Below are positions 21,230 to 55,494 of a DNA stretch of 64,000 nt, one piece after another. Within the stretch, counting starts at the first letter, position 1. Each line of letters begins with the position of its first letter. The stretch spans positions 1,088,069 through 1,152,068 of the forward strand of contig CALSRS010000001.1 of the NCBI GenBank assembly GCA_943788815.1, in the 5' to 3' direction. The translations under genes and the position numbers were made by a program. A model generated the notes under the pieces. That model was not told where the DNA came from and made no database searches. It saw only the letters and a list, made by a program, of their open reading frames with translations. The DNA is from an uncultured Gammaproteobacteria bacterium. Its GTDB lineage: Bacteria > Pseudomonadota > Gammaproteobacteria > Eutrophobiales > Eutrophobiaceae.

Positions 21230-22828
21230 CTACTGAGGCTGAGCCGTAGTATCACCATAATCGATACTGATATCTCTACCAAAAAAGTTAGAATAGGCAT
21301 CGGGGGTATTCATTTCATCGCGGGAAATTTGTGTTGCTCCTAATTTAACCAGCAGTGCTGCTGTCTCTTCATGCACACCATACGCACCCACGTTGTTAAA
21401 AGAGGGAGCCATACCCAATGCCATACTCCATGGAGTTTCGCCATTACTGTTTCTTGCATCGATGTTTGCACCATTATCAGCAAGGAACTGAACAATATTG
21501 GTTGCCCCGGTGAATGCTGCTTTATGCATGGCAGTTTCGCCATCTTCATTGACGGCATTGACATCTACCCCCATTGCGACAATTGACTTAATGGCTTCCA
21601 GGGCCCGAGCTCGTTTTGCCGGTGAGGTATTGTCTTCCTGATTCATACCAGTACACGATGATCTGGCAGCGACCATTAACGGAGTATTGCCATTTTTTGT
21701 GGTTAAGGTGGCGTCAGCCTCATATTCACTCAACAAGCGAAGTAATTCCGCATCGGCAGAAACCGCCGCCAGAAAATAGGGAGTGGCACCCACCATATTA
21801 CTGACGCTCTCACAGGAACTGCGGATTGCAGGGCCAATTAAGTAACTTTTTTCAATTTGAGCATTAGGATCAGCACCAGTTTCCAATAATGCCTTAACCA
21901 GTTTCGGCTGATTTTTGGGACGCAGCCGGTAGGATGGATCATAGGTAATGCCATGCATATAGGACAGACCATTTTGATGAGCATGATGTAATGCAGTCAC
22001 CCCATTTTCATCCTTTGATTCTGGATCAGCTCCTGACTCTAATAAAAAGATTGCAAGGTCTTCATGATTACTTGCAGCTGCTATCACAAGGGGATTGCCA
22101 TACTCATCCGTTGCCTCATTAATATCTGCACCGGCGTCCAATAACAATCTTGCGGTATCAATATTCCCGGCCCGTGCTGCAAACATCAGTGCAGTAAAAC
22201 CACCGGGCGAGGGTTTCCATTCACAGATTCTGCAAGTATTGGGGACGCGGTCTTCCGAAGCCAGGGTCTTAGGTGAGATATCCGCACCGTGATCCAGCAA
22301 CAATTTTGTAATTTCTGCGTGACCACCTGCGGCTGCCCACATTAATGGGGTTTGACCCATTTTATCTTCCGAAACATTCGGGATTGCACCGGCATTTAAT
22401 AATGCAGCCACGGCATCTGTAGCACCTGTGCGAACACATTCCATTAGCACCGATTCACCAGACCATTTCTCCGCATTAGCATTTGCACCGGCATCCAGTA
22501 ACAACTCCACCATATCACCGTTACGATTCGTGCAGGCCAGGGACAGGGGTGTGATGCCATAGTCATTGGCGACATCTGGATTTGCCTTAGATTTAACCAG
22601 TAGTTTAGCTAGCCCAAGATCATTGAGATGTACTGCATAGTGTAATGCAGTCGTGCCATCAGCCTTTTTAGTATTCACATCCGCTGATGATTTCAACAAT
22701 GATTTAATTTCAGCAGTATCACCTTTTTTTGCAGCATCTATTAGCCCCAAACCGGAATTGGCAAAGACAGCCAACGACAAGAATGAAAGCACAAATGTTG
22801 AAAATGCAATTCGTAACAACTGGATCAT
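21230..22828 (-). CDS. exported ankyrin-repeat protein, cassette copy 1
   Basis: 532 residues, ATG at 22828. A signal peptide (about 1-23, AVFANSG) is followed by about ten ankyrin repeats recognisable as DGTTALHYAVHLNDLGLAKLL, YGITPLSLACTNRNGDMVELLL and so on to NGETPWSMALGMAPS near 480. The middle carries family-specific insertions (LASEDRVPNTCRICEWKPSPGG near 200; SSCTGMNQEDN near 390). Periplasmic ankyrin proteins act as binding scaffolds. It is third in cassette 1, 32 bp after the DUF1552 gene. Its C-terminus ends DYGDTTAQPQ rather than the PPPPGQ seen in copies 2 and 4, and it lacks the paired-Cys insertion typical of copies 2-4. Confidence 0.92.
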   Translation of the reverse strand: MIQLLRIAFSTFVLSFLSLAVFANSGLGLIDAAKKGDTAEIKSLLKSSADVNTKKADGTTALHYAVHLNDLGLAKLLVKSKANPDVANDYGITPLSLACTNRNGDMVELLLDAGANANAEKWSGESVLMECVRTGATDAVAALLNAGAIPNVSEDKMGQTPLMWAAAGGHAEITKLLLDHGADISPKTLASEDRVPNTCRICEWKPSPGGFTALMFAARAGNIDTARLLLDAGADINEATDEYGNPLVIAAASNHEDLAIFLLESGADPESKDENGVTALHHAHQNGLSYMHGITYDPSYRLRPKNQPKLVKALLETGADPNAQIEKSYLIGPAIRSSCESVSNMVGATPYFLAAVSADAELLRLLSEYEADATLTTKNGNTPLMVAARSSCTGMNQEDNTSPAKRARALEAIKSIVAMGVDVNAVNEDGETAMHKAAFTGATNIVQFLADNGANIDARNSNGETPWSMALGMAPSFNNVGAYGVHEETAALLVKLGATQISRDEMNTPDAYSNFFGRDISIDYGDTTAQPQ

Positions 22829-22860
22829 AATGTCTCCCGCACTCTATCTCTTGTTATGAT

Positions 22861-24198
22861 TTATGACACCGACAAGGCATTGAGCTTTCCGGTACTATCA
22901 CCGAAGTTTTCGATATCAAGGCCAAGCTTGTCAAGTAAGGTCAGGTAAAGATTACTAATCGGTGTATCGTCTGTATAGCGTATATGTTTACCACCTTTTA
23001 ATTGCCCGCTTCCACCGCCAAATAACGCACAGGGTAAGTCCTGCAGGATATGATCATTACCGTCACTCATAGAGCATGCATACATCACCATGCTGTTATC
23101 CAGCAAGCTACCTTCAATATCCGGAGTTGACGCCATCTTGTCCAGGTAATAGGTCAATAACTCGGAATGGTAAAGATTAATCTTGTATAGCTTATCCAGA
23201 CTAATCTCATTACCCTGGTGATGAGAGAGGGAGTGATGGACATCCGGAACTCCAATCTCAGGATAGGTTCGATTACTTTGCTCCGGTCCAGTCATCATGG
23301 TAACCACCCGGGTCATATCCGTTTGATAGGCCATGACGTTGAGGTCAAACATGAGTTTAAGATGCTCAGCAAAGTCTGCTGGGATTCCTGCCGGTGGCTC
23401 ATCAATAGAGAGATCTATATCGGACTGTTGTTCTACCATTTGGATACGGTGTTCGAGTTCTCGCATTCCATCCAGGTATTCTGTGAGCCTCAGCTTATCT
23501 TCAGTACCGACCTGCTTCATCAGATCATTTGCTGCTTCGCGGACTGAATCCAGGATGCTTTGTTCCTTTTTGATACGTTGCATTCTTACCAAAGGATCAG
23601 CGCTGTCCCCGAACAATCGCTCAAATACGGCCCTGGGTCGGTTCTCTATTGGAAGTGGCATGGTTGGTGTGCGCCATGACAAGGTGCTGATAAAGGCACA
23701 ACTCCAGCCTTTCTCACACTGACCAACGGCATCACTGCTATGCAGACCCAGTTCCAGGGACGCCAGCTGTGTCTTTTTACCTAATTCCTGTGCAGCAATT
23801 TGATCAACCGATATACCAGTCTCACCTTCGCGTTTGGGATGTACGCCTGTCAGAAATACCGCACCGGCTCGCTCGTGAGGGGCAGATTCACCTTCACCAG
23901 GTTTAGCATAACCCTCCATATTGGATAGGCCACTAAGCACGGTCATGTTGTCTTTATAGGCTGCTAGAGGTTGCATGATTGGTGACAATTCGTAGTTTGC
24001 CCCGGTCGCCTTAGGTGTCCACTTTGTCATGTTCATCCCATTGGGTGCATAAACTATAGACAACCTGCGAGGTATCTCAACCCGGTCTTTAACCGAAGCC
24101 AGCGCTGGAAACATGGCATCCAGCATAGGTATGGCGATGGTGGCACCAGCGCCACGTAAAAATGTCCTACGGGGTATAGATTTCTTAAATATCAACAC
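22861..24198 (-). CDS. Tat-exported DUF1552 (HXXSHH) protein, cassette copy 1
   Basis: 445 residues. The start is GTG at 24198, nested in the end of the upstream DUF1592 gene (14-bp overlap). The N-terminus KKSIPRRTFLRGAGATIAIPMLDAMFPALA is a Tat signal with RR at 9-10. The eponymous motif HHSLSHH occurs near residue 325, with other conserved blocks YAPNGMNM near 50, APHERAG near 105 and SDGNDHILQDLP near 390. DUF1552 is an uncharacterised family. The related DUF1501 family belongs to the alkaline phosphatase-like fold, so a metal site made by the His and Asp residues is plausible but inferred. It is always partnered with the DUF1592 protein here. Confidence 0.94.
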   Translation of the reverse strand: MLIFKKSIPRRTFLRGAGATIAIPMLDAMFPALASVKDRVEIPRRLSIVYAPNGMNMTKWTPKATGANYELSPIMQPLAAYKDNMTVLSGLSNMEGYAKPGEGESAPHERAGAVFLTGVHPKREGETGISVDQIAAQELGKKTQLASLELGLHSSDAVGQCEKGWSCAFISTLSWRTPTMPLPIENRPRAVFERLFGDSADPLVRMQRIKKEQSILDSVREAANDLMKQVGTEDKLRLTEYLDGMRELEHRIQMVEQQSDIDLSIDEPPAGIPADFAEHLKLMFDLNVMAYQTDMTRVVTMMTGPEQSNRTYPEIGVPDVHHSLSHHQGNEISLDKLYKINLYHSELLTYYLDKMASTPDIEGSLLDNSMVMYACSMSDGNDHILQDLPCALFGGGSGQLKGGKHIRYTDDTPISNLYLTLLDKLGLDIENFGDSTGKLNALSVS

Positions 24199-26593
24199 GG
24201 TTCGAGACCCTCCTCATTTGATAAGGTGAACTGTTTACAATTGCAATAATAAGAGACGGCAGGCTGTGCTGCTGTGATTTCGTCTCTTCAATAATGGATC
24301 GGATAATTGGGGCATCGGTATGACGAATCTCCCTGCCCAATGAATAGGTCAGCATCTTTTCAATAAAGGTAAATACAAAATCATATTGCCTTTTTTCCGA
24401 TAGTACCTGTTTTAATTCTGATGGACCTTCAAATGGTGTTCCGTCTGGCAATACACCAGTAGAATCTATCATTGCTGCTGATGCGCCATCAACAGTTCGC
24501 CATTTACCAATGCCATCATAGTTTTCAAGGGCAAACCCCAGGGGATCCATAATCTTATGGCAACTGGCACAGACTGGATTTGCCCGGTGCATTTCCATAC
24601 GTTCACGCATGGTCAGAATGACCCCGGATTCATCTTTGTCCTTTAATCCTGGCACATCGTTTGGTGGTGGTGGAGGTGGTACACCCAGAATATTTTCCAG
24701 TATCCATTTACCGCGAATGGTAGGTGCTGTCCGGTTTGCGTAGGAGGTAACAGTCAGGATACTCCCCTGCCCCAATAAGCCGCCTCGTGATTCATCTTCC
24801 AACATTACTTTACGGAAATGGTTCCCATAAATATCCGAAATTCCGTAATGCCCCGCCAGGCGTTCATTAATGAACGTATAGTCAGCAGTCAACATTTCCA
24901 ATAAGGGCTTGTCTTCACGCATGACGTGGTCAATAAATAATTCAGTCTCGGTCCTAAATGCCTCTCTCAGATTGTCATCAAAATAGGGAAAGATATCGAT
25001 GTCTGGTGCAGCGACATTCAGCTTTCCTAGTGTCAGCCACTGGGAGGCAAAATTCTTGACTAGTGCGATGGAGCGAGGATCATCCAACATGCGTCTAACC
25101 TGTTGCTCCAGGACTTTTGGATTCTTTAGTTTACCTGACTCGGCAACAGACAATAATTCTTCATCGGGGATACTACTCCAGATAAAAAATGACAGCCGAC
25201 TGGCCATTTCCAGATCTGGCAGGGAGTAGAGTTCACCTTCGGCAATATTCGCTGGTACTTTTTCTGTTAAAAACAGAAACTCAGGGCCAGCAAGCATTCG
25301 CTCAACAGCAACACCAATACCTTCTTCGAATCCGCCTCGTTCAACACCCTGGTCAAAAAAGCTCATCAAGGTGTTAACTTCTTTATTCGTAGGCGATCTC
25401 CGGTAGGCCTTGCGGGCTAAGGATGAAAGAATAGTCCTGGCACAGTCTGTATCGTTATCGTTTTTCGGGCTACAGATCAAAATCTTTTCCCGACTTGCCG
25501 TTTCCCCTGCACCTCGAACCTCATATGGCCCACCTATGGCCAAGGTGCGCACACCCGGGTTACCGCCCTTGAACTGGGTGTAATCATACATAGTATGTTC
25601 AGGGATGTGTGGCCCTTCTGGCAGAAAAATATCTTCTAGAAAAGATGTCGTAATTAACTGCTCACCAGCTTTTGCCTGGAAGCGAACTTCCAGTGATTGA
25701 TCTGAATATCGTTCATAGGCTTCCTGCTTTAAATCCCCCTGTGCCGATGTGGAATAAAGCTGGGAAGACTTACCAAATTTTTGGCCACCGACAGTAAAGA
25801 GCTTGAGGCGCTCATCGTTCATACGGATGTCCAGTTGATGAGGCCGGTTGGTCATACCGCGAATATAATCGCGGTAATTTCTTTGCAGCTTGACCTGCAC
25901 AACATACTCACCATCCATGGGAAAGCGATGACGCACAGCAATGCCACCACGGGAACCGAACGGCATATCATCATTCATGCGTTCGTCCTGTTTGAGTGCC
26001 TGAGGCAAAGTGTAATATTCAAAGGCAGGGGAAATATCCGGATCTCCCAGAGCCTTGTTTCGAATTTTTCGGGCAGCGGCTATATAACGTTCTATCAATA
26101 GTGGCGAAAGGGTCAATACACTACCAATATTGTCAAAATTGAACATGGCTGCGTCTGCTGGCAACAAGGTTTCGCTATCAATATCGACTGCAAACAGATC
26201 CCGAATAGAATTTTCGTATTCTGTCCTGTTCAGACGCCTTATGGAGGGCCTGCCTGGTTCGGGATTCTGACTTGCATATTGGTTTAGACCAGTTTCCAGA
26301 AAGCTGACAAAAGACTCGTAGGTAGCATTATCTGGCCTGGGCATTCCCGATGGTGGCATGGCCTTGGCTCGTAATTTACGTAAAACCTTTTCCCAGACTT
26401 CACCATCAGTACCGATATTTTGGCTATCAACGTGTTGAAGACTGAGTCCAGCGGTATTCAGGACATCATTATGACAGCCAACACAGTATTGATTGATTGT
26501 ATTCTGATAAAACCCAGCATCTTGCTGAGCAACGCTGACTCCTGAGACCAGGAACAGTGCACTAAAAATACAGGCTAAATAACTCTTTACCAT
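24185..26593 (-). CDS. exported di-haem PSD/DUF1592 protein, cassette copy 1
   Basis: 802 residues, ATG at 26593. Signal peptide about 1-22. First haem motif CVGCH at 37-41. Then PSD3/DUF1587 (about 115-180, RRLNRTEYENSIRDLF), PSD5/DUF1595 (about 380-440, LARKAYRRSPTNKEV), PSD4/DUF1592 (about 450-585, MLAGPEFLFL), PSCyt3/DUF1588 (about 615-710) with the PPPPPP hinge and second haem motif CASCH at 675-679, and PSD2/DUF1585 (about 725-795). The architecture is known from planctomycetes and myxobacteria but has no assigned function. It starts cassette 1. The final codons also encode the start of the DUF1552 gene. Electron transfer in the periplasm is implied by the haems. Confidence 0.94.
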   Translation of the reverse strand: MVKSYLACIFSALFLVSGVSVAQQDAGFYQNTINQYCVGCHNDVLNTAGLSLQHVDSQNIGTDGEVWEKVLRKLRAKAMPPSGMPRPDNATYESFVSFLETGLNQYASQNPEPGRPSIRRLNRTEYENSIRDLFAVDIDSETLLPADAAMFNFDNIGSVLTLSPLLIERYIAAARKIRNKALGDPDISPAFEYYTLPQALKQDERMNDDMPFGSRGGIAVRHRFPMDGEYVVQVKLQRNYRDYIRGMTNRPHQLDIRMNDERLKLFTVGGQKFGKSSQLYSTSAQGDLKQEAYERYSDQSLEVRFQAKAGEQLITTSFLEDIFLPEGPHIPEHTMYDYTQFKGGNPGVRTLAIGGPYEVRGAGETASREKILICSPKNDNDTDCARTILSSLARKAYRRSPTNKEVNTLMSFFDQGVERGGFEEGIGVAVERMLAGPEFLFLTEKVPANIAEGELYSLPDLEMASRLSFFIWSSIPDEELLSVAESGKLKNPKVLEQQVRRMLDDPRSIALVKNFASQWLTLGKLNVAAPDIDIFPYFDDNLREAFRTETELFIDHVMREDKPLLEMLTADYTFINERLAGHYGISDIYGNHFRKVMLEDESRGGLLGQGSILTVTSYANRTAPTIRGKWILENILGVPPPPPPNDVPGLKDKDESGVILTMRERMEMHRANPVCASCHKIMDPLGFALENYDGIGKWRTVDGASAAMIDSTGVLPDGTPFEGPSELKQVLSEKRQYDFVFTFIEKMLTYSLGREIRHTDAPIIRSIIEETKSQQHSLPSLIIAIVNSSPYQMRRVSNRVDI

Positions 26594-26789: not shown

Positions 26790-28544
26790 TCAATCAGGCC
26801 TAACCATTAGATTAATAGTATTGGATGTTCCCCCTTCTGGTGCTGGATTAAAGGCGTGGATTTTAATCCCACGATAACCAATGGTATTAAACTCCTGAAA
26901 CGGACCGGGAGACCGATAAGGATCGGGGGCAGATTCCTTAAACAAGGAAGCTGATAAATCAAATTCAATACGCCTGGGATTTATAAAATATGTCTTCACT
27001 GAAATCCCGTTCACTCTCACCAGGGTTGTCATCTGAAAGCCGCTACCTTCCAGTGCGACTCGCCGATCTCTACCACCTGCCGTCACGTATGAAGGGTACA
27101 AAGTACTGATAACGGGGGCAAAGGTTGAACCTGCTATAGAACGCGGCGGTTGAGTAAATGTGTAGTATTCAGGATGATATCCCAGTTCTACCCACATGCC
27201 ATTTTTCATGACCCGAGATATTGAACGTGAATTGTAAATATCCACCAACGGGTTTTTATCCAGTACAACAAGATCTGCAAATTTGTCAGTCTCAATAGAA
27301 CCCACCATGGCTGACCCACGTTTACCCTCAATTCCTTCAAATTGTTCAGCTGACCACCGGGTTGCGGCCTTGATGGCCTGCATAGGTGTCAAACCTGTCT
27401 CAACCAGCATACGCATTTCCTGATGCAGTCCTAGCCCAGGCACGCCTGCAGTAATGGCATCAGTACCGGCCTGTACCTTGCCACCGGCGGCCATCCAGCG
27501 GCGCATGAATTCCTTAATATTCTCAAAACCCAATTCAAATATTTTACGGTCTTCATCCTGGAGCATTTCAAGCAAGGGTAAATTTCCATATCGGGATGAA
27601 AAGTTTTTAATCTGACGGTGCTTGGCAAACAGGCTTAACTTTATATTTCCGGGAAAATATACCAGACCAGGATCTCGTAGGGTCAGGTAATCATCTATCT
27701 CACGCTGGTTGGCATCCTGGCTCATACCACCCCATTCATAGACCAGGGTAGGATTCAGATAAACGTCCTGCTCCACGACATCCTGGATTATCTTATCAAT
27801 CTCATCCCAGCGATCTGTCATAAATGTTGCCCAGGTCAGGTAATCGCCACGCTGGAAGGCGCTGAGTTCCGCATCCGTCATCACCGCCTGGGTAAACCCC
27901 CAGATATGTTCAACGATGCCATGTCCATCTCGGAAACTATTCGTGACATCTTCAGTATGGCCAAAGACCATATAATCGTGGCGTTGCACTTCCCTGGCGG
28001 CCAGGGCATAAGCCCGGCTTATCTGGGCATTGTGTGTGGGGAAATGCGCGATGTCCGGTTCATTATCCAGCCATTCTTCTATGATCTGTCGCATCTCCCT
28101 TTGTGTGGTGTCCTTATTGAATGGAGGACGATTCCCACTATGAAATAGTCGTGGAAGTCCGTGGGAGGTCTGACTGCGTGTACGCTTGGTCTTTGCAAGA
28201 TTGGTCAAACCAACCACAGAGGTAACACCATGGTTAACATACAGTTCGCCCATCCAATCCAGCCAATGAACATGAGAATCTATCAATCCTGGAATTATAT
28301 ATTTACCATCCAGATCGATTACTTCAACATTTCCACTCACTGATTCACCGGGCTGCAGGACTTCCTTTATCAGATTATCTTCAATCAGAATGGAGTATCC
28401 GCGTAATGGTGTATCTGACACACCATCGATTATGGTGGCACCCTGCAGAAGCAGTCTGGATTGTTGTGCTGATACGGGAGAAATTACAAGTGTAGAGATA
28501 ATAACTATTTTTATTAAATGACAAATCCTGTCGACCTTTTCCAT
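26790..28544 (-). CDS. exported amidohydrolase with C-terminal IPT-like domain
   Basis: 584 residues, ATG at 28544. Signal peptide about 1-27 (ISPVSAQ). The metal-dependent hydrolase domain has the HxH pair H91 and H93 in IDSHVHW, further His in MVFGHTED and GIVEHIWGF, and a late Asp in AGTDAITAG (about 375). Residues about 485-584 form an extra beta-rich domain (PVISTLYPSYVTAGG, VALEGSGF, VRVNGISVKTYFINP) resembling an IPT/TIG fold. Imidazolonepropionase-like exported members cleave small amides or peptides. It precedes cassette 1 on the same strand by 196 bp, and its own promoter probably lies in the 28545-28647 gap shared with the divergent NADH dehydrogenase. Confidence 0.88.
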   Translation of the reverse strand: MEKVDRICHLIKIVIISTLVISPVSAQQSRLLLQGATIIDGVSDTPLRGYSILIEDNLIKEVLQPGESVSGNVEVIDLDGKYIIPGLIDSHVHWLDWMGELYVNHGVTSVVGLTNLAKTKRTRSQTSHGLPRLFHSGNRPPFNKDTTQREMRQIIEEWLDNEPDIAHFPTHNAQISRAYALAAREVQRHDYMVFGHTEDVTNSFRDGHGIVEHIWGFTQAVMTDAELSAFQRGDYLTWATFMTDRWDEIDKIIQDVVEQDVYLNPTLVYEWGGMSQDANQREIDDYLTLRDPGLVYFPGNIKLSLFAKHRQIKNFSSRYGNLPLLEMLQDEDRKIFELGFENIKEFMRRWMAAGGKVQAGTDAITAGVPGLGLHQEMRMLVETGLTPMQAIKAATRWSAEQFEGIEGKRGSAMVGSIETDKFADLVVLDKNPLVDIYNSRSISRVMKNGMWVELGYHPEYYTFTQPPRSIAGSTFAPVISTLYPSYVTAGGRDRRVALEGSGFQMTTLVRVNGISVKTYFINPRRIEFDLSASLFKESAPDPYRSPGPFQEFNTIGYRGIKIHAFNPAPEGGTSNTINLMVRPD

Positions 28545-29934: not shown

Positions 29935-29935
29935 A

Positions 29936-37340: not shown

Positions 37341-38327
37341 TCAGTCATTAATCTGAAGATTTAATCTTTCTTTCGCCTTTTGTTGGTAAGTAGTGTCTGC
37401 ATATTTTTCCATGGGAGAAATTTCGTTAACTATTCCTTTTTCAAGTAACAACTGAGAAATTTGACTATAACCATCAGAACTCAGCGTGCCAAACCGAACC
37501 AGACCGTGCTTTACGAATGCTTCATAAGCACCATCGAGTATATTTCTTTCATGGCCACCAATATTAACGGCTATATTCATTGCCTCGTCACGATTCGATT
37601 CATCTAGCAACCATTCAGTGGCACGGATATATGCCATCAGATATTTCACCAGGACATCACGATTCAATTCTCCCCAGTCCCTGCGGGTAGCAATTGAAGA
37701 CGCAGGGAATTGGGGATAATGCTCTGAAAGACTGGTCAACCTTGTATAACCCTCCGCTTCAGCTTCAATACTTGCAGGTGGGTTCATATAGGTCACATCA
37801 GCCTTGCCTGCTCTTAGAACTTGCATGCGCATGGCTGGACCACCAGAGTTTGCAATTACCTTGTAATCACCTGGATTGACCCCATTAGCACGCAGGACCT
37901 TATCAAACATAAGCCAATAACTGACATTCAAGTTTGCCAGTGCAAAAGTTTTATCCTTGAGGTCATTAAAAGATTTGATACCAGGCCCGACAAGTAAATC
38001 ATTGGTAGCTCGGGTAATGGTATGCACCACGACAAAGTTGTCTCCCCTTTCAATTGCCCTGACGATATGATCTGCTGCCTGATGCCCCAGGTCGAGTTCA
38101 GCATTTCTCAATTTTTCAAGTTGGGCTGTCGCGTCCCCTGTCAGTATCAGCTCTACATTAATACCTTGTTCTGCGAAATACCCCTTGTCTTCGGCCACCC
38201 ACATTGGCCATTTGTTGACGGATTCGCTGATGACACCGACACGTAAATCGACAGCACCTGATGCGCTAGTCACTACGAGGAAAAGGATTAAAACTAAATA
38301 TCTGCAATCACGATCGGGGAATGACAT
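37341..38327 (-). CDS. NMT1/SsuA-like periplasmic solute-binding protein, paralogue 1
   Basis: 328 residues, ATG at 38327. Signal peptide about 1-24 (TSASGAVDL). The NMT1-like fold is shown by LRVGVISESVNKWPMWVAEDKGYFAEQGINVEL, LKDKTFALANLNVSYWLMFDKVL and TYMNPPASIEAEAEGY. Such proteins bind thiamine precursors, sulfonates, taurine or aromatic compounds for ABC import. No ABC permease or ATPase of this class lies nearby, so it is an orphan. A close paralogue starts 17 bp upstream. Confidence 0.87.
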   Translation of the reverse strand: MSFPDRDCRYLVLILFLVVTSASGAVDLRVGVISESVNKWPMWVAEDKGYFAEQGINVELILTGDATAQLEKLRNAELDLGHQAADHIVRAIERGDNFVVVHTITRATNDLLVGPGIKSFNDLKDKTFALANLNVSYWLMFDKVLRANGVNPGDYKVIANSGGPAMRMQVLRAGKADVTYMNPPASIEAEAEGYTRLTSLSEHYPQFPASSIATRRDWGELNRDVLVKYLMAYIRATEWLLDESNRDEAMNIAVNIGGHERNILDGAYEAFVKHGLVRFGTLSSDGYSQISQLLLEKGIVNEISPMEKYADTTYQQKAKERLNLQIND

Positions 38328-38344
38328 GATTACATTCCTGATTA

Positions 38345-39301: not shown

Positions 39302-39333
39302 GAACAACCTCCGGTAGTCATACTTAAATAAAA

Positions 39334-40910: not shown

Positions 40911-40920
40911 GCTTATTACC

Positions 40921-46355: not shown

Positions 46356-47696
46356 TTAGACAGACAAAAGATCCAGCCTACCGTTACTATCTCCGAATTT
46401 TTCCACTGGTATTTCAAACTTATCAAGCAAGGTCATATACAGGTTTGCAACCGGAGTTCTTTCTGGATATTTAATATGCTTTCCACCCTTGAGCTTTCCT
46501 GCGCCACCGCCAAACAATACTATTGGCAGGTTTTGCATTAAGTGATCATTTCCATCACTGATACTTGAACCGTACATAATTATCAAATTATCCAACAGTG
46601 TGCCATCCACATCTTCAGTAGCACGCAGTTTATCAAGATAGTAGCTTAGTAATTCAGAATGATAGTGGTTAATCTTGGTGAGTTTAGCTAACTTTTCAGG
46701 ATTACTTTGATGGTGCGACAAGGAGTGATGTACGTCCGGGACGCCAATCTCTTTATAGGTTCGATTACTTTGTTCAGGCCCAGTCATTAAAGTGATCGTC
46801 CTTGTCATATCTGTTTGGAAAGCCAAAACCTGAAGATCAAACATTAATTTCAAATGATCAGAAAATTCTGATGGCAGCCCTGTAGGACGTTCCACCGAAG
46901 GAATTTCTCGTGATGACTGTTGCTCAGCCATTTGAATTCGTCGTTCAACATCCCGCATACCATCAAGATACTCGGTCAGCCTGAGCTTATCTTCAGCGCC
47001 CACTCTCGTCATTAAGCGAGATGCCGCATTCGTAACAGAATCCAGTAAACTTTTGTCCTTTTTGATTCTAACTAACCGTACCTCTGAATCAGTGCTGCTA
47101 CTGTCACCAAACAGTCTTTCAAACACAGCCCTGGGCCGGTATTCAATTGGTAAAGGTGTAGTAGGTGTGCGCCATGACACCGTACTCATATACGCACAAT
47201 TCCAACCATTTTCACATTTCCCAACAATGTCGTTGGTGTGTAGCCCAAGCTCAAGGGACGCAAGCTGGGTATGTTGACTAAATTCCTTTGCAATGATCTG
47301 ATCTATGGATACGCCTGTTTGCCCCTGTTGCAATGGATGGACTCCAGTAAGAAAGACACCAGCAGCGCGCTCATGAGGTGCAACTTCACCTTCGCCAGGC
47401 AATGCATCACCTTCATTATTATCAAGACCACTAAGCACCAGCATCTGATCTTTGAAACGAGTGAGCGGTTGTAATGCGGGACTTAATTCATAGGATGCAC
47501 CCGTTAATTTTGGGGTCCAGGTCTCCATATTCATACCATTGGGGGCATAAATAACAGAAAACCGAGGCGCTGCCTTCAGCTTCTCTTTTGATAATGCCAA
47601 TGCCGGTGTCATCGCATCCAATAACGGCAGGGCAACACTTGCTCCCATTCCGCGTAAAAAAGTACGGCGGGGAATTGATTTTTTAAATATCATCAT
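46356..47696 (-). CDS. Tat-exported DUF1552 (HXXSHH) protein, cassette copy 3
   Basis: 446 residues, ATG at 47696 nested in the DUF1592 end (14-bp overlap). Tat signal KKSIPRRTFLRGMGASVALP. HHSLSHH near 325, SDGNDHLMQNLP near 390, APHERAA instead of APHERAG near 105. The tail ends LDLLSV. Otherwise collinear with copies 2 and 4. Confidence 0.94.
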   Translation of the reverse strand: MMIFKKSIPRRTFLRGMGASVALPLLDAMTPALALSKEKLKAAPRFSVIYAPNGMNMETWTPKLTGASYELSPALQPLTRFKDQMLVLSGLDNNEGDALPGEGEVAPHERAAGVFLTGVHPLQQGQTGVSIDQIIAKEFSQHTQLASLELGLHTNDIVGKCENGWNCAYMSTVSWRTPTTPLPIEYRPRAVFERLFGDSSSTDSEVRLVRIKKDKSLLDSVTNAASRLMTRVGAEDKLRLTEYLDGMRDVERRIQMAEQQSSREIPSVERPTGLPSEFSDHLKLMFDLQVLAFQTDMTRTITLMTGPEQSNRTYKEIGVPDVHHSLSHHQSNPEKLAKLTKINHYHSELLSYYLDKLRATEDVDGTLLDNLIIMYGSSISDGNDHLMQNLPIVLFGGGAGKLKGGKHIKYPERTPVANLYMTLLDKFEIPVEKFGDSNGRLDLLSV

Positions 47697-50097
47697 GACT
47701 GGTTACCCTCCTCATTTGAAACGGTGTGCTTTCGATAATCGCGTTGATTAACGCTGATATTCGATACTCTTCAGACGCTGCTTGCTTAATTATTGAACGC
47801 ATAAAGGAGGCATCAGTATGCTCAACCTCGCGCCCTAAGGCATAAATAAGTAATTTTTCCACTACAGTATGTATAAAATCATAACTTCGTTTTTCCAGTA
47901 GCACCTGTCTTAATCCAGCAGGTCCAACAAAAGGTGTACTGTCAGGCAATTCTCCTGAGGCATTAATGGCTGAACCAGAAGCAGCATCTATAGTGCGCCA
48001 CTTACCAATACCGTCATAATTTTCCAACGCAAAACCCAGAGGGTCCATTACTTTGTGACAACTTGCACATACCGGGTTAGAGCGATGTTGCTCCATCTGT
48101 GCGCGCATAGACAATACTTCGCCATCATCATTTTTATCTCTGAGACCAGGAATATTCGGTGGTGGTGCCGGCGGTGGCGCACTAAGGATATTTTCTAATA
48201 CCCATTTTCCACGAATGGTGGGGGCCGTACGATTGGCATAGGAGGTTATAGTTAAAATACTTCCCTGACCTAACAGGCCACCACGGGAGGGATCCGATAA
48301 GGTAACCTTACGAAAATGACTGCCATGAATATCTGGAATATCATAATGTTTGGCGAGGAGTTCATTCACAAACGTGTAATCTGCGTTCAGGAGTTCCAGT
48401 AGTGGACGATCCTCCCTGAGGATATATTCAATAAATAACTTGGTTTCCGTCTGAAATGCCTGTCGCAGATTGTCCGTAAAGTACGGAAATAAATCAGCGT
48501 CTGGGTCTGCTGCATTTAATCTACCCAAATTCAGCCACTGCGATGCGAAGTTATCAATGAGTGCTTGTGATCTTGGATCCTCAAGCATGCGTTCAAGCTG
48601 CTGTTTCAATACTTTGCTGTTTTTGAGTTTTCCGGTTTCAGCAATATCCAGCAAGATGTCATCTGGAAAACTACTCCAGAGAAATAAAGACATTCGGGTA
48701 GCAAGCTCATTGTCTGAAATTGAAAAAATTTCTCCAGGCACCACGTTTTCAGGCAGGTCTTCAATCAGAAATAAAAATTCCGGTCCTGCCAGAATTCGTT
48801 CAATCGCCAGACCTATCCCCTCATCAAAACTCCCTTCAGCTTGCCCCTGTTTAAAAAAATACATCAAATCGTCCATTTCGGCCTGGCCAGGTGTAGCGCG
48901 ATAGGCACGTTTTGCCAGATTTCTCAGGATTTTTGTAGCACACTCATCGTCATTTAAGTTTTTTGGTTGGCAAGTGAAAATCTTCTTACGACTAGCCGTC
49001 TCGCTAATTCCATTGTTATTAAACGGTCCTCCAATAGAAACCGATCGAACCTCAGGATTCCCCCCCTTGAACTGCGCATGATCATAGTGGGTCGGTTCAG
49101 GATACAAAGGCGTTTCATCAATTGCAGTATCCTGCAAAAAGGCCGCAGTCAATTTATGATTACCAGCCTTAGCATTAAATCTAACATTCAATGTTGTATC
49201 GAAGTAACGTTCATAGGCCTCCTGAGCAACATCTCCCTGTGCTGCTGTGGAATATATCCCGGCAGATCTCCCTTTCTTTTCACCACCGACACTAAATACT
49301 TTAAGGCGCTCACCATTTAGTCGTACATCTAATAGATGGGGATAGTCCTGCAGACCACGAATATAATCACGAGAATTTTTTTGCAATCGTATCTGTACTT
49401 CATATTCACCTTCCAATGGAAAATAGTGTTGAATAGCCATACCACCGCGAGTACCAAATGCCAACTCCTCGTTCATCCTGTCTTCTTGCCTGGTGGTCGT
49501 AGATATTGAGTAGACCTCAAATTCGGGCTGCATTCCTGAATCACCAATTGCGAGATGCCGAACTTTTCGGGCTGCAGAGATATATTGCTCCGCCAATAAA
49601 GGCGATAAAGTTAATGCTGTTCCAATATTTTCAAAACCAAACATGGTGTCATCTGGTGGTAATAATGACTCTCCATTCACTTCAAGGGCGAGAAGATCTC
49701 GTACGGCATTAGTGTATTCTGTGCGATTAATTCGCCGCATGGAGGGCTTACCCGGGTAAGGGTTTTCCAGAGAATGATTGTCTAGCTCAGACTCCAGGTA
49801 GCTTGAGATTTTTTCATAAGTAACCAAGTCTGGTCGAGGCATCCCGAGAGGAGGCATGGCTCTGGCTTTGAGTTTTCGTAAAACTTTTTCCCAGATTTCA
49901 GCATCTTCACCAACGCGACTAGTATCTATACCCTGGAGAGTAAGACCGGCTGTTCGTAGTGCATCATTATGACAGCCTACACAATATTGATTAACTGTGG
50001 CTTGATGTGTTGCCCCCTCGCTAACTCGTTGAGCACTCGCATCCAGGCTGAGTATCAAACAAAATGTTATCAGGCCTATCCTTGAAAACACGGTCAT
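47683..50097 (-). CDS. exported di-haem PSD/DUF1592 protein, cassette copy 3
   Basis: 804 residues, ATG at 50097. Signal peptide about 1-22. Haem motifs CVGCH at 39-43 and CASCH near 677. The hinge reads PPPAPPP instead of an uninterrupted proline run. All PSD domains are present in the same order. It ends SHDDI-stop with the DUF1552 start inside. Confidence 0.94.
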   Translation of the reverse strand: MTVFSRIGLITFCLILSLDASAQRVSEGATHQATVNQYCVGCHNDALRTAGLTLQGIDTSRVGEDAEIWEKVLRKLKARAMPPLGMPRPDLVTYEKISSYLESELDNHSLENPYPGKPSMRRINRTEYTNAVRDLLALEVNGESLLPPDDTMFGFENIGTALTLSPLLAEQYISAARKVRHLAIGDSGMQPEFEVYSISTTTRQEDRMNEELAFGTRGGMAIQHYFPLEGEYEVQIRLQKNSRDYIRGLQDYPHLLDVRLNGERLKVFSVGGEKKGRSAGIYSTAAQGDVAQEAYERYFDTTLNVRFNAKAGNHKLTAAFLQDTAIDETPLYPEPTHYDHAQFKGGNPEVRSVSIGGPFNNNGISETASRKKIFTCQPKNLNDDECATKILRNLAKRAYRATPGQAEMDDLMYFFKQGQAEGSFDEGIGLAIERILAGPEFLFLIEDLPENVVPGEIFSISDNELATRMSLFLWSSFPDDILLDIAETGKLKNSKVLKQQLERMLEDPRSQALIDNFASQWLNLGRLNAADPDADLFPYFTDNLRQAFQTETKLFIEYILREDRPLLELLNADYTFVNELLAKHYDIPDIHGSHFRKVTLSDPSRGGLLGQGSILTITSYANRTAPTIRGKWVLENILSAPPPAPPPNIPGLRDKNDDGEVLSMRAQMEQHRSNPVCASCHKVMDPLGFALENYDGIGKWRTIDAASGSAINASGELPDSTPFVGPAGLRQVLLEKRSYDFIHTVVEKLLIYALGREVEHTDASFMRSIIKQAASEEYRISALINAIIESTPFQMRRVTSHDDI

Positions 50098-50143
50098 TTA
50101 TATAACCCCCAGTGAAAACAATCTTTAAAGAATTCAGACAAAT

Positions 50144-50202: not shown

Positions 50203-50285
50203 GGTGGAATGTAAAGACGACTAGCTAATTGAGAATGAGTCTCAGATTAGGGAGATTTAGACAATATATTCGTTGGTAATTGCAG

Positions 50286-51764
50286 TTATTGGCCTGGTGG
50301 GGGAGGAGATCGATCATCCATTTGATCACGACTGACAACTTTTGCACCCAATTTCAATAGCAATTGTGCAGTACTTTCGTGTTTCCCATACAGTCCCTGG
50401 TATCGAATCACAGGGCTAATCCCCGAGGCCATACTCCAGGGGGTTTCACCATAATTGTCTGATACATTCACATCTGCCCCCTGATCAGCAAGGAACTGGA
50501 CAATATCATCAGCACCGATAAATGCGGCCATATGCATTGCAGTTTGACCCTTTTCTGTCCTGGCATTGATATCGACCCCCATATTCACTGCGGCCTTAAC
50601 CGCCTCAAGTGCAAGGCGGTTCTTTTCGCTGTTCGACTGATTGCCTCCCTGAAATGCACAAGACCCAGTACAAGCTGCCTGGGCTGCGGCAATAAGGGGC
50701 GTCACCCCCCCCTTCGCAGTAAGACTGGTATCCGCTTCATATTCAGTTAATAAATGCATCAGTTCCACATCCGATGATAGTGCAGAAAGTATTAATGGTG
50801 TTGCATATGTCATTTCAAAAGCACTTCCATCTGGGCCCAGTCGATGACTTTTCTGAATTTTCGCATTAGGGTCGGCCCCTGCTTCCAGCAAACTTTTGGT
50901 CAAGCTTCTCATGTTGTCAGGCCGTACTCGGTATACCGCATCGTATCGTACACCGTTAACTGTGGACATCCCGTTTCGAATGGAATTATGTAGTGCGGTC
51001 ACCCCATACTGATCACTTGAATCAGATTCGGCAGCTTGTTGTAACAGATAGATTGATAATGCTTCATGACCACTGGCACTAGCAACCACCAGGGAATTGC
51101 CTGTCTCAACAGTGCTTTCATTTGGATCTGCGCCCGCTTCCACTAGCAGTTTTGCAGTTTCCACATCACCGGATATTGCCGCAAACAATAAGGGTGTAAA
51201 CCCATTACGGGATTCCGTTGAGACTTTTGCCCCATTTTCGATCAATACCTTAACGACCTCAGCATGCCCCTTCGCTGCTGCCCACATCAGCACGGTCTGC
51301 CCTTTCTCTTGCTCAGTTGCATTAGCATCTGCCCCAGCATCAAGCAATAATTTAACCGCAGCAGCCGCACCTCTACTCGCACAATTCATTAAGGGGGTTT
51401 CACCTGACCAAAGTTTTGTATTGGTAGTAGCACCAGCATTCAATAGTGCTTCGACCATGTCTGTATTTTTATTCGTACAGGCAAGGTATAAGGGTGTCAC
51501 GCCATATGCATTGGCAAGATTTGTATCAGCATTGTTTTGAATCAAGAGTTTTGCTATTTCCTGGTTATCCCAGTGGGCTGCCCAATGTAGCGCAGAGGTT
51601 CCATCATTATCGGTATGATTTACATCGACTCCCTGTTTAAGCATAGCCGAAACATCGTCAATATTTCCCTGTTTGGCCGAGGTCACTAACGATAATTGCG
51701 CCATTGCCAATACACCATGAACTAACAGGCCAATTGTTAAAAATATATTTAGATGTGTCTTCAT
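50286..51764 (-). CDS. exported ankyrin-repeat protein, cassette copy 4
   Basis: 492 residues, ATG at 51764, three bases after the DUF1552 stop. Signal peptide ends near VLAMAQLS. About ten ankyrin repeats (DGTSALHWAAHWDNQEIA to YGETPWSMASGISPVIRYQG). The paired-Cys insertion is AQAACTGSCAFQGGNQSN. The tail ends SPPPPGQ. Third gene of cassette 4. Confidence 0.92.
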   Translation of the reverse strand: MKTHLNIFLTIGLLVHGVLAMAQLSLVTSAKQGNIDDVSAMLKQGVDVNHTDNDGTSALHWAAHWDNQEIAKLLIQNNADTNLANAYGVTPLYLACTNKNTDMVEALLNAGATTNTKLWSGETPLMNCASRGAAAAVKLLLDAGADANATEQEKGQTVLMWAAAKGHAEVVKVLIENGAKVSTESRNGFTPLLFAAISGDVETAKLLVEAGADPNESTVETGNSLVVASASGHEALSIYLLQQAAESDSSDQYGVTALHNSIRNGMSTVNGVRYDAVYRVRPDNMRSLTKSLLEAGADPNAKIQKSHRLGPDGSAFEMTYATPLILSALSSDVELMHLLTEYEADTSLTAKGGVTPLIAAAQAACTGSCAFQGGNQSNSEKNRLALEAVKAAVNMGVDINARTEKGQTAMHMAAFIGADDIVQFLADQGADVNVSDNYGETPWSMASGISPVIRYQGLYGKHESTAQLLLKLGAKVVSRDQMDDRSPPPPGQ

Positions 51765-51767
51765 TGA

Positions 51768-53108
51768 TTAAGCAGTTGAGATATCCAGGTGTCCATTACT
51801 ATCACCAAACGACTCCATTTGTATTCCCAGCTTATCCAATAAAGTTAGATATAAATTCGCCACTGGTGTCTTTTCAGGATACTTGATATGAACACCTCCA
51901 TTTAATTGACCTGACCCACCACCTATAATTGCCAATGGAAGATTTTGCATCAGGTGATCATTGCCATCACTGATTCCACTGCCATACATAATAATGATGT
52001 TATCCAGCAAAGACCCATCCATGTCCGGCGTAGCAGCCAGCCTGTCCAGATAATAAGACATTAATTCTGTATGGTACCCGTCAATTTTCTTTAGCTTATC
52101 CAGTTTCTCCGGGCTACCCTGGTGATGTGACAGGGAGTGATGTACGTCAGGAATACCGATTTCTTTGAATGTGCGATTACTTTGTTCTGGTCCTATCATC
52201 AAAGTTATCATTCGGGTCATATCCGTTTGATACGCCAGGATCTGTAAATCAAACATTAACTTAAGGTGATCAGCAAAGTTTGATGGTACGCCTGATGGCC
52301 GTTCAACCGTCGGGATTTCCCTGTCGGATTGCTGTTCTGCCATCTGGATACGCCGTTCAACATCCCGCATTCCATCTAAATATTCTGTAATTCTGACACG
52401 GTCCTCTGGCCCTACCTTTCTAATTAGTCGTGCCGCTGCATTCGTCACAGAATCTAGAAGGCTTTTATCGTTTTCGATTCTGGCCATCCTGACTTTAGGA
52501 TCGGTACTGTTATTATCACCAAATAATCTTTCGAATACGGCACGGGGGCGATACTCTATAGGTAATGGTGTCGTTGGATTACGCCATGACAAGGTATTCA
52601 TGAATGCGCAGCTCCAACCTTTTTCACAATGACCAACAACGTCTGTTGTATGCAGTCCCATTTCTAAGGACGCAAGTTGTGTTTGCTGTCCCAATTCCCT
52701 GGCAACTATTTGATCAATAGATATACCAGTCTCCCCATAACGTAATGGATGCACACCCGTTAAAAAGACGCCCCCCGCGCGTTCATGCGGGGCAGTTTCA
52801 CCTTCGCCTGGTAAGGCATCACCTTCATTATTGTCCAGTCCGGTCAATACATGCAGCTTGTCCTTATATTTGGCAAACGGCTGTAGTGATGGACTCAAAT
52901 CGAAATTTCTGCCCGTTGTTTTGGGTGTCCATTGACTCATGTTCATACCATTTGGGGTATACACAACGGAAAACCGCCTTGCAGGTTCTATTTTATCGCG
53001 TGCAGCTGCCAGTGCTGGCAACATGGAATCAAGAAATGGCAGGGCAATGGTCGCACCTGTTCCTTTCAAAAATGTCCTACGATCAATTGATTTTTTAAAT
53101 ATCATCAT
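51768..53108 (-). CDS. Tat-exported DUF1552 (HXXSHH) protein, cassette copy 4
   Basis: 446 residues, ATG at 53108, 14-bp overlap with DUF1592. The Tat signal is KKSIDRRTFLKGTGATIALP, with IDRR in place of IPRR. HHSLSHH near 325 and SDGNDHLMQNLP near 390 are retained, as are YTPNGMNM and APHERAG. It ends LDISTA. Confidence 0.94.
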   Translation of the reverse strand: MMIFKKSIDRRTFLKGTGATIALPFLDSMLPALAAARDKIEPARRFSVVYTPNGMNMSQWTPKTTGRNFDLSPSLQPFAKYKDKLHVLTGLDNNEGDALPGEGETAPHERAGGVFLTGVHPLRYGETGISIDQIVARELGQQTQLASLEMGLHTTDVVGHCEKGWSCAFMNTLSWRNPTTPLPIEYRPRAVFERLFGDNNSTDPKVRMARIENDKSLLDSVTNAAARLIRKVGPEDRVRITEYLDGMRDVERRIQMAEQQSDREIPTVERPSGVPSNFADHLKLMFDLQILAYQTDMTRMITLMIGPEQSNRTFKEIGIPDVHHSLSHHQGSPEKLDKLKKIDGYHTELMSYYLDRLAATPDMDGSLLDNIIIMYGSGISDGNDHLMQNLPLAIIGGGSGQLNGGVHIKYPEKTPVANLYLTLLDKLGIQMESFGDSNGHLDISTA

Positions 53109-55494
53109 AACTTACGGCCCTCCTCGTCTGGAAAGGTATACTCTCGACGATTGCAGTGATTAATGCTGAAATCTTGTGCTTGTCTTTGTCGGTCTTTTTC
53201 ATTATTTCTCGCATGGTAGATGCATCTCGGTAATCGACTTCGCGCCCCAACCCATAGGTCAATATTTTTTCTACGAAGGTAAAAATAAAATCTTCACTTC
53301 GTTTATCCAGCATGACCTCTTTGAGTCCGACTGGTCCTGAAAAAGGAGTACTGTCTGGTAATTCACCTGAAGGATCTATCACAGAACCTGAAGCTGCATC
53401 AACTGTCCGCCATTTTCCGATACCATCATAGTTTTCCAGGGCAAATCCGATAGGATCCATTACCTTGTGACAACTGGCACAAACAGGATTGGCCCGATGT
53501 TGCTCCATCCGCGCGCGCATAGACAACACCTTTCCTTCATCATTCTTATCCCGCAATCCTGGGACATTGGGTGGTGGTGGCGGTGGTGGGGAACCAAGCA
53601 GATTTTCCAATACCCATTTTCCACGGATGACAGGTGAAGTCCGGTTTGCGTAAGAGGTAATAGTCAAAATACTTCCCTGCCCAAGTAGTCCACCCCTGGT
53701 TTTGCCAGTCAGGTTAATTTTTCTAAAATGACTGCCATGTACATCGGGAATACCATAGTGCTGTGCAAGCCTCTCATTTACAAATGTATAGGGGGCATCC
53801 AGAAGCTCCAACAACGGCCTATCTTCTTTAATAATATAATCAACAAATAATTCTGTTTCCTTCTTAAAAGCAGCTCGCAGATTGTCATCAAAATAGGGAA
53901 ACAATTCAGTATCCGGCGCCACCGCATTTAATCGACCTATGTTGAGCCATTGCAAGGCAAAGTTATTTAACAATGCATCTGAGCGCGGGTCATTTAACAT
54001 CCTTTGTACCTGCTGGTTTAATATCCTGGAGTCCTGAATTTTCCCAGAATCAGCCAGTGCCAATAATTCATCATCAGGAAAACTGCTCCAGATAAATAAG
54101 GCTAGTTTTGTCACCAGTTCATGGGGGGGAATATTAAACGAATTCCCTACTGCAACTGACTCTGGCTGCTCTTCCAATATAAAAAGGAATTCTGGACCAG
54201 CAAGAATGCGTTCAATCGCAAGGCCTAGACCATCATCAAAACTCCCTTGAGATTGTCCACGCTTAAAAAATGCCATGAGCTCATCCATTTCAACGTCTTC
54301 GGGCTGACGTCGGTATGCCCTGGTTGCGAGTTTCTTTAATATGGTCTCAGCACATTGAGATTCATTATTTCTTGAAGGCTCGCAGATTAAAATCTTTTGT
54401 CGACTTGCCGTTTGAACCATTCCATTGGGTTCAAATGGACCACCAACCGAGACTGAACGAATGCCGGGCAGTCCTCCCTTATATTGAGAAAAGTCATAAT
54501 TAGTATGTTTTGGATATACCGGTTTTTCAGTGATCGCATTATTCTTAAGAAAGGTAGCGACAAGCTGATGATAACCGGCATCACTATAAAAACGAATGTT
54601 CAAGTCTTCATCCAGTGTACGCTCATAAATTTCTTGATCGATATCACCCTGGGCAGCAGTAGAAAAAATACCGGATGATCGACCCCGTTTTTCACCACCA
54701 ATGGTAAATTGATGAAGCTGTTTACCATCCAGGCGAATATCTAATAGGTGAGGATCATCTTGTAGACCGCGTATATAGTCCCTGGAGTTTCGTTGAAGTC
54801 TTACCTGAATTTCATATTCACCATTGGCAGGAAAAAAATGTTTCACCGCCATTCCACCTCGTGAACCAAATGGCAAATCTTCACCTAACCTGTCTTCTTG
54901 ACGAGTGTTATTGCTTAACTGGTAGATGTCATATGACGCTTGTACGTTGGCATCCCCGAGGGCTTGTTTTCTTACTTTTCTTGCTGCAGAAATGTATTGT
55001 TCCGTTAGTACTGGCGATAGTGTTAACACATTGCCAATATTGTTAAAACCAAACATCGAATCATCTGGCGGCAGCAGGGATTCTTCATCAATATCAACTG
55101 CAAGTAGGTCACGAATCACATTGGTATACTCTGTGCGATTAATCCTACGCATCGCGGGCCTGCCTGGATGCGGGTTCGCTTGTGCATATTTGTCTAGCTC
55201 ATCCTCAAGAAATTGTGAGAAGCCATCATAGGTGGAGGTATCCGGTCTTGGCATACCTGCTGGCGGCATAGCACGCGCGTTTAGTTTACGTAAAACCTTT
55301 TCCCACTTTTGTGCACCATTACCTATGTCATGGGTACTGATATCTTGCAAGCTTAGACCCGCTGTTTTTAGCTGATCATTATGACAGGTGACGCAATATT
55401 GATTGACGATAGATTGATAGTGGTCGGAGACGGCCTGTGCTGAGCATGACACGCTTAACACACTCAACATTATCCAGTATAAATAAAGACGCAT
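53095..55494 (-). CDS. exported di-haem PSD/DUF1592 protein, cassette copy 4
   Basis: 799 residues, ATG at 55494. Signal peptide about 1-20 (SVSCSAQA). First haem motif CVTCH at 34-38 (Thr instead of Gly), second CASCH near 672. The hinge has seven consecutive Pro. Domain order as in the other copies. It ends SYDDI-stop. A TATACT box lies 56 bp upstream on the minus strand. Confidence 0.94.
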   Translation of the reverse strand: MRLYLYWIMLSVLSVSCSAQAVSDHYQSIVNQYCVTCHNDQLKTAGLSLQDISTHDIGNGAQKWEKVLRKLNARAMPPAGMPRPDTSTYDGFSQFLEDELDKYAQANPHPGRPAMRRINRTEYTNVIRDLLAVDIDEESLLPPDDSMFGFNNIGNVLTLSPVLTEQYISAARKVRKQALGDANVQASYDIYQLSNNTRQEDRLGEDLPFGSRGGMAVKHFFPANGEYEIQVRLQRNSRDYIRGLQDDPHLLDIRLDGKQLHQFTIGGEKRGRSSGIFSTAAQGDIDQEIYERTLDEDLNIRFYSDAGYHQLVATFLKNNAITEKPVYPKHTNYDFSQYKGGLPGIRSVSVGGPFEPNGMVQTASRQKILICEPSRNNESQCAETILKKLATRAYRRQPEDVEMDELMAFFKRGQSQGSFDDGLGLAIERILAGPEFLFILEEQPESVAVGNSFNIPPHELVTKLALFIWSSFPDDELLALADSGKIQDSRILNQQVQRMLNDPRSDALLNNFALQWLNIGRLNAVAPDTELFPYFDDNLRAAFKKETELFVDYIIKEDRPLLELLDAPYTFVNERLAQHYGIPDVHGSHFRKINLTGKTRGGLLGQGSILTITSYANRTSPVIRGKWVLENLLGSPPPPPPPNVPGLRDKNDEGKVLSMRARMEQHRANPVCASCHKVMDPIGFALENYDGIGKWRTVDAASGSVIDPSGELPDSTPFSGPVGLKEVMLDKRSEDFIFTFVEKILTYGLGREVDYRDASTMREIMKKTDKDKHKISALITAIVESIPFQTRRAVSYDDI

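Follow-up and report, generated by a model that had tools for sequence, protein, structure and literature searches.

What is an ankyrin-repeat protein doing beside a putative di-haem protein of the DUF1592 type and a DUF1552 protein, and do the three genes belong together? The question is raised by a 64,000-nucleotide stretch of DNA, here called the window, from contig CALSRS010000001.1 of the uncultured gammaproteobacterial assembly GCA_943788815.1 (order Eutrophobiales, family Eutrophobiaceae). The window holds four blocks, or cassettes, each with the genes in the order DUF1592, DUF1552, ankyrin, and 12 of 12 open reading frames (ORFs) lie on the minus strand. As regards the genes, the answer is well supported: the trio is a genetic unit of three parts, conserved in two phyla. 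What the three products may do together is less firmly answered and is argued from their sequences, from two structure models and from the company that the cassettes keep.

All 12 cassette ORFs exceed the Pfam cut-off of the family expected for them. Cassette 1 comprises a DUF1592-type gene (24185..26593) encoding the domains PSD3-PSD5-PSD4-PSCyt3-PSD2 behind a Sec-like start, with CXXCH motifs at residues 37 and 675; a DUF1552 gene of the HXXSHH type (22861..24198) with a twin-arginine start, overlapping the DUF1592 gene by 14 bp; and an ankyrin-repeat gene of exported type (21230..22828) with a signal-like start. It stands about 13 kb from the other three, which form a tandem array with periods of 5455 and 5432 bp (the ankyrin genes end at 39399, 44854 and 50286). 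In cassette 2, the DUF1592-type gene (42251..44659) is recognized from Pfam and its motifs, the DUF1552 gene (40921..42303) has a homology alignment that favours a start at 42264 (the ATG of MMIFKRS), and the ankyrin gene (39399..40931) encodes the N-terminal stretch expected of an exported protein. The same three occupy 47683..50097, 46356..47696 and 44854..46335 in cassette 3, from which both structure models were made, and 53095..55494, 51768..53108 and 50286..51764 in cassette 4, whose DUF1552 protein, recognized also by its motifs, belongs to an alignment in which 34 of 34 members match PF07586. The proteins measure 799-804 (DUF1592-type), 445-460 (DUF1552) and 492-532 (ankyrin) amino acids. 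Because the other three copies share with cassette 3 only 60-65% (DUF1592), 67-74% (DUF1552) and 50-58% (ankyrin) identity, the copies are old rather than recent duplicates. The preliminary description of this DNA had reported four three-gene blocks in one order and strand, three of them in tandem at about 5.4 kb, and both observations held; its count of four is an understatement, being only the window's share of 17 copies in the genome.

The source assembly comprises 3.23 Mb in 3 contigs, in which profile searches matched 17 DUF1592 genes, 18 DUF1552 genes and 82 Ank_2 domains. When the neighbourhoods were read, 17 of 17 DUF1592 genes were followed by DUF1552 and then ankyrin on a single strand. 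The 82 domain matches resolve into 18 ORFs, every ankyrin gene found in the genome, and 18 of 18 lie inside the triples, one cassette having two ankyrin genes in a row (L046:5999-9887, minus strand). The remaining DUF1552 gene (L048:6424-7773) stands alone, as does its nearest relative in genome G007 (L122:5271-6614); beside these sister genes of two species, neither a DUF1592 nor an ankyrin gene was found. Exactly two CXXCH motifs are present in 17/17 DUF1592 proteins, a twin-arginine pair near the start in 18/18 DUF1552 proteins and an N-terminal hydrophobic stretch in 18/18 ankyrin proteins. With export called from motifs and hydropathy, without a signal-peptide program, all three products appear to leave the cytoplasm, and the earlier proposal of a di-haem DUF1592 protein with a Sec-type start, a Tat-type (twin-arginine translocation) DUF1552 protein and an exported ankyrin is thus borne out at the level of sequence. 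Of the 17 copies, 13 have overlapping DUF1592 and DUF1552 ORFs; given the starts assigned, the overlap measures 4, 14 or 53 bp (the 53 bp overlap shrinks to 14 bp with the start expected from homology), and this suggests translational coupling of the two. Apparent fusions of DUF1592 and DUF1552 genes at three other loci (L022, L023, L028) proved spurious; the upstream open frame had no DUF1592 match and the DUF1592 gene lay in another frame.

The association extends through the order, sampled as 53 genomes of one family. DUF1552 is found in six of them, namely all five genomes of the genus (18, 17, 10, 20 and 13 matches) and one other with a single match. The order is not poor in ankyrins, since the cassette-ankyrin profile matches 38 of the 53 genomes. 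In the six genomes that carry DUF1552, 77 of 83 ankyrin-profile matches lie within 4 kb of a DUF1552 match, 77/77 of these downstream and on the same strand. Conversely, 75 of 79 DUF1552 matches have such a neighbour; of the four that do not, one is a partial match, one has its start at contig base 6 and two are the solitary sister genes described above. DUF1552 is present in only 6 of 299 Pseudomonadota genomes, the source genome counted. As a side observation, public records of metagenome-assembled genomes titled Klebsiella pneumoniae (CAMDWI and CAMBTO; L009-L011, L013, L015-L017, L019, L020, L033) carry the cassettes of this freshwater genus. The label looks wrong for CAMDWI; for CAMBTO this is judged from the cassettes alone.

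The same trio is found in Acidobacteriota. Four genomes of this phylum, chosen through loci closely related to the cassettes and thus not a random sample, contain 40, 31, 4 and 17 DUF1552 matches (G351 to G354, in that order). Ankyrins scoring at least 150 bits lie within 5 kb of DUF1552 in 30/36, 18/23, 3/3 and 10/19 cases, and all 14 misses in the fragmented genomes G352 and G354 are ankyrins on contigs without a DUF1552 match. In G351, which is a single contig, 2000 random placements averaged 2.8 such ankyrins and never exceeded 9, against the 30 observed; a DUF1592 gene adjoins 39 of 39 distinct DUF1552 genes there, and an ankyrin is present at 30. The chance-level association that the preliminary description had named as speaking against a unit therefore did not occur, either in the order (77/83) or in G351. 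Across a spread of the phylum, DUF1552 was present in 11 of 80 genomes, G351 counted. Nine low-copy genomes had an ankyrin at 9 of 18 loci, in seven of the nine genomes, and in the many-copy genome G431, 19 of 21 fetched cassettes had one. Nine of the eleven single-DUF1552 genomes seen were examined, and the full trio was present in six: four Acidobacteriota (G355, G371, G411, G429) and two Gammaproteobacteria (G019, G305); it was not found in the other three (G363, G127, G222). The ankyrin of Acidobacteriota is sometimes upstream or on the opposite strand. Downstream placement on the same strand was found in at least 102 of 136 sampled cassettes, a minimum, since overlaps of one base counted as upstream.

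A tree of 162 distinct DUF1552 proteins (FastTree, Shimodaira-Hasegawa-like support) indicates that the ankyrin partner is a clade trait of the DUF1552 family, as its presence requires only three changes among the scorable rows. Within the closer subfamily (at least 440 bits, a line drawn after the fact), 136 of 152 members have an ankyrin, 5 have none, and 11 lack one and are unscorable. None of ten distant members has an ankyrin (four without, six unscored). The distant Acidobacteriota DUF1592/DUF1552 subfamilies L132, L134, L140-L142 and L104-L107, where no ankyrin was found, make a natural comparison group. The statement of the preliminary description that an ankyrin is kept in every copy thus applies to the 17 DUF1592 genes of the source genome and fails for a clade of Acidobacteriota pairs and for the distant subfamilies. 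The cassettes of the genus all fall into one 66-row group (support 94, not starred) within the diversity of Acidobacteriota, and one Acidobacteriota row (L024) is nested inside this gammaproteobacterial group. Transfer of the cassette between the two phyla, once or repeatedly and in either direction, is therefore likely. As the DUF1552 subgroups mix members of several species of the genus, many of the duplications predate those species.

Broadly, the three proteins appear to diversify together. Their within-genome distance matrices correlate at r = 0.76-0.94 in four genomes, and in each of the 12 tests 0 of 5000 permutations reached a value as high. Pooled partial correlations with lengths equalised (five genomes, 93 complete triples) are 0.58 for DUF1592 with DUF1552, 0.386 for DUF1592 with the ankyrin and 0.308 for DUF1552 with the ankyrin, suggesting a weak lean of the ankyrin to DUF1592 over DUF1552. 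A stronger tie of this kind (partial r 0.46-0.59 versus 0.11-0.32) was considered and given up, as most of the difference went once DUF1592 was trimmed to match DUF1552 in length.

The sequence of the DUF1592 protein points to two haem sites. PSD3, PSD5, PSD4, PSCyt3 and PSD2 are over the Pfam cut-off in all four window proteins, and all five domains are present in 28 of 28 members of the DUF1592 alignment. The model of the cassette 3 protein (predicted local distance difference test, pLDDT, 85.8; predicted TM-score, pTM, 0.84) has a cytochrome c-like N-terminus, a β-sandwich at residues 190-362 and a helical C-terminal part that carries the second haem motif. Among solved structures, only two weak cytochrome sequence matches were obtained; the CCP/MauG profile was not among the Pfam matches of the 28 members, and for the helical part the fold search gave no usable match, the β-domain having filled the list. 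From its motifs, we infer that DUF1592 is a di-haem c-type protein. The combination of two c-haem motifs with a β-sandwich resembling a carbohydrate-binding module (CBM), as modelled here, appears to be new.

For DUF1552, 34 of 34 alignment members match PF07586; solved structures gave no sequence match, and in NCBIfam the one DUF1552 and one DUF1592 protein scanned had none. The model of the cassette 3 protein (mean pLDDT 76.7, pTM 0.82) is more informative. Its best Foldseek match is to a sulfatase (E = 4.7e-5), with 10 matches at E ≤ 0.001 comprising sulfatases, LtaS and YejM/PbgA-type proteins. VIA-align yields Z scores up to 17.1 (268 residues, root-mean-square deviation 4.0 Å) and Z ≥ 8 in 482 of 998 chains; the best 50 of the 998 rows (Z 15.9-17.1, 237-278 residues) are mostly sulfatases, nucleotide phosphodiesterases and related enzymes. 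The fold is thus predicted to be that of the alkaline phosphatase (AlkP)/sulfatase superfamily, a new assignment. Four histidines are nearly invariant among the 162 members: H108 (161/161), H324 (161/162), H328 (162/162) and H385 (159/161). Within the HXXSHH motif, position 327 is S or T in 161/162 and H329 is present in 153/162. Going by the order of secondary-structure elements and not by superposition, H108 presumably sits at the helix start where the AlkP superfamily has its Ser/Thr/Cys nucleophile, H324 and H328 at the place of the Asp-x-x-x-His motif, and H385 at that of the Asp-His pair. The position after the first strand, where the superfamily would have an Asp ligand, is mostly N, H, T or M, again by element order. 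DUF1552 is thus probably built around a histidine-based metal centre, which sharpens the putative metalloprotein of the preliminary description to a predicted AlkP-superfamily fold with four near-invariant histidines.

The genes that flank the cassettes differ from copy to copy. Annotation covered a selection: the window ORFs, 30 ORFs of which 29 are outside the window, and a few more. It includes TonB-dependent receptors, pyrroloquinoline quinone (PQQ)-type dehydrogenases, amidohydrolases, an amidase, a patatin and others, beside housekeeping genes. In the window, cassette 1 is accompanied by a protein like PQQ-type methanol/ethanol dehydrogenases (19180..20874, minus strand; over the Pfam cut-off, below that of NCBIfam) and an amidohydrolase-like protein (26790..28544, minus). 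Directly downstream of cassette 2 are two adjacent NMT1/THI5-like substrate-binding proteins (37341..39307, minus), with a TonB-dependent receptor beyond (34544..36715, minus). A FAD_binding_2 oxidoreductase with a twin-arginine-like start (55788..57647, plus) diverges from cassette 4; all of these are regarded as accessory. The best NCBIfam match of the oxidoreductase is flavocytochrome c, with ketosteroid dehydrogenase lower, all below cut-off, and a 619-amino-acid ORF with the same kind of start stands at the same place in another locus (L018, 2481-4340). Across the genome, 4 of 11 PQQ genes lie within 5 kb of a cassette where 0.74 would be expected, a count reached in 25 of 5000 random placements. 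So do 8 of the 43 TonB plug genes, a set that includes three below the family cut-off; here 2.91 were expected, and 35 of 5000 placements came as high. These odds are optimistic because random placement ignores the clustering of PQQ and TonB genes. This enrichment is circumstantial and suggests uptake and periplasmic oxidation of differing compounds around the cassettes. Two further observations concern the surroundings: a 308-amino-acid ORF encoding ten CXXCH motifs behind a signal-like start, possibly a decahaem cytochrome, lies about 5 kb upstream of a cassette (L039:596-1522, plus strand), and elsewhere in the source genome (contig C1, 707438-717003, beyond the limits of the window) a run of four TonB plug matches, possibly a receptor array, lies about 3-12 kb from a cassette.

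A reading that would join these findings is that the trio forms one functional unit, a periplasmic redox module with the ankyrin bound to the DUF1592/DUF1552 pair; the prospects of this proposal are evenly balanced. DUF1592 would receive or supply electrons, and its C-terminal haem may also do chemistry. The Tat-exported DUF1552 protein, an AlkP-type fold with its pocket rebuilt around four histidines, would join the cytochrome in acting on a substrate or an intermediate. The ankyrin, also exported, would bind the pair, either holding it together or helping to load or protect its cofactors in the manner of catalase-linked ankyrins. The copies may be tuned to different substrates, which TonB receptors would import and PQQ dehydrogenases, near some copies, would partly oxidise. 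In a bolder and doubtful form, the trio would be a new class of periplasmic three-part oxidase, made of an AlkP fold converted to a His-ligated redox metalloenzyme, a di-haem cytochrome dedicated to it and having a substrate-binding domain, and a likewise dedicated ankyrin on which they assemble. The freshwater gammaproteobacterial genus and some Acidobacteriota would then hold 10-40 sets per genome, each specific for a substrate, as a redox counterpart of polysaccharide utilisation loci.

Several observations weigh against a redox module of this kind. Six of the 83 cassette-type ankyrin matches in the order stand apart from DUF1552 (two of these are fragments of less than 210 bases), and a clade of Acidobacteriota pairs, like the distant subfamilies, does without an ankyrin. 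The ankyrin is thus not strictly required, because some pairs lack it and a few cassette-type ankyrins occur alone. Taken two at a time, the three proteins agree on their nearest relative in just 6-10 of the source genome's 17 copies, in 7-8/13 in G010 and in 12-15/30 in G351, against 14-16/17 in G009. The Foldseek TM-scores of DUF1552 are modest, at most 0.48 among the matches listed; the presumed equivalence of its histidines to metal ligands follows the order of secondary-structure elements; and the likeness of the DUF1592 β-sandwich to CBM35/36/6 (Z at most 8.1) may mean a common arrangement only. There is no PQQ gene within 5 kb at 13 of 17 cassettes and no TonB plug gene at 9 of 17. What the data show is the genetic unit, its conservation and co-diversification, the export-type N-termini, the haem motifs and the predicted folds, while a complex, a metal, bound haem, electron flow and substrates are what we infer.

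The alternative that survives best, unlikely yet worth serious consideration, is that the ankyrin is a maturation or protection factor. It would deliver or guard haem, or shield from peroxide, on behalf of its cognate DUF1592 protein, and permanent binding would be unneeded. The lean of the ankyrin to DUF1592 in the pooled correlations is in keeping with this, but the gap between 0.386 and 0.308 is small. The invariant columns of the ankyrin alignment are mostly typical repeat positions, with no haem ligand identified, and c-type haem is normally attached by dedicated maturation machinery, which speaks against the need for such a factor. There are precedents for ankyrins in the service of haem proteins. 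According to the available text of two papers (PMC11442138, PMC7567364), Cj1386 of Campylobacter jejuni binds haem and serves the catalase KatA, AnkB is needed for KatB catalase activity in Pseudomonas aeruginosa, and Leptospira has an ank-katE operon; Cj1386 is, however, listed there as cytoplasmic, unlike the cassette ankyrins.

Rather improbable is the idea that DUF1552 is an ordinary AlkP-superfamily hydrolase, whether sulfatase, phosphodiesterase or phosphatase, trimming a substrate that the cytochrome then oxidises. The fold matches, from the Foldseek hit to a sulfatase to the best 50 VIA-align rows, are what it would predict. The presumed active site is not, because an invariant histidine (H108) occupies the place expected of the nucleophile and the position expected of the Asp ligand is mostly N, H, T or M; moreover, sulfatase or phosphatase Pfam profiles match none of the 34 members.

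It is more improbable still that the ankyrin is merely carried along, the trio duplicating as a block that linkage, not a shared function, keeps together. Co-duplication of linked genes by itself yields correlated trees, a point that also counts against a redox module, and the window's array is a block of this kind. Linkage does not readily explain why the trio is kept in six of nine single-copy genomes of two phyla, why the ankyrin of Acidobacteriota switches side and strand yet remains within 5 kb, why the annotated flanking genes vary by copy while the trio stays, or why ankyrin presence changes only three times on the DUF1552 tree. That the ankyrins have nothing to do with the pair, being immunity proteins or effectors of a eukaryote-like kind, is scarcely credible: bacterial ankyrins are often effectors and generic effector models do match, far below their cut-offs, but the cassette ankyrins are a coherent family tied to the pair and have Sec-like starts. 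Effector roles of bacterial ankyrins are described in the available text of PMC3932732.

If a periplasmic redox module is the correct reading, an ankyrin would serve enzyme assembly outside the cytoplasm rather than host interaction. Should the substrates be carbohydrates or recalcitrant organic matter, the cassettes would have a share, so far unrecognised, in the carbon turnover of lakes and soils. The PSD/PSCyt-DUF proteins are an old open question, being present in many copies with no known function (He et al. 2017). With a frequent third partner, a predicted DUF1552 fold, a genome with all the ankyrins found in it in the system and full trios in low-copy genomes, the question comes within reach of a test on a single expressed operon.

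How then does the trio compare with known systems? In freshwater Verrucomicrobia, PSCyt3/DUF1592-type genes usually adjoin unknown genes that form one family; they occur in many copies per genome and without known function, and their products are predicted to be periplasmic or cytoplasmic (He et al. 2017, PMC5615132, as far as its available text goes). Its main text does not name the families, but DUF1552 and DUF1501 are each counted three times in the file of the paper, and the DUF1592/DUF1552 pair is therefore very likely the one reported there, so that the pair itself is not new; the word ankyrin was not found in the paper. In open-licence PubMed Central papers, with subscription papers and preprints outside the search, no paper naming both DUF1592 and DUF1552 and no description of an ankyrin partner was found. 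With the AlkP/sulfatase superfamily, DUF1552 shares its overall predicted fold and differs in the invariant histidine at the expected place of the nucleophile, the four near-invariant histidines and the di-haem gene partner. The β-sandwich of DUF1592 is like CBM6/35/36, a likeness of fold with a weak score (Z up to 8.1). The AnkB-KatB, Cj1386-KatA and ank-katE systems are alike in setting an ankyrin beside a haem protein, and AnkB and the Leptospira KatE are periplasmic in the available accounts; their partners are catalases, whereas here the partners are a putative di-haem c protein and a protein of predicted AlkP fold, the set reaching about 40 copies at most. Compared with the Verrucomicrobia system of He et al., whose available text describes the same kind of multi-domain PSD/PSCyt protein, the cassettes have a fixed third gene and are hosted by a gammaproteobacterial genus and by Acidobacteriota.

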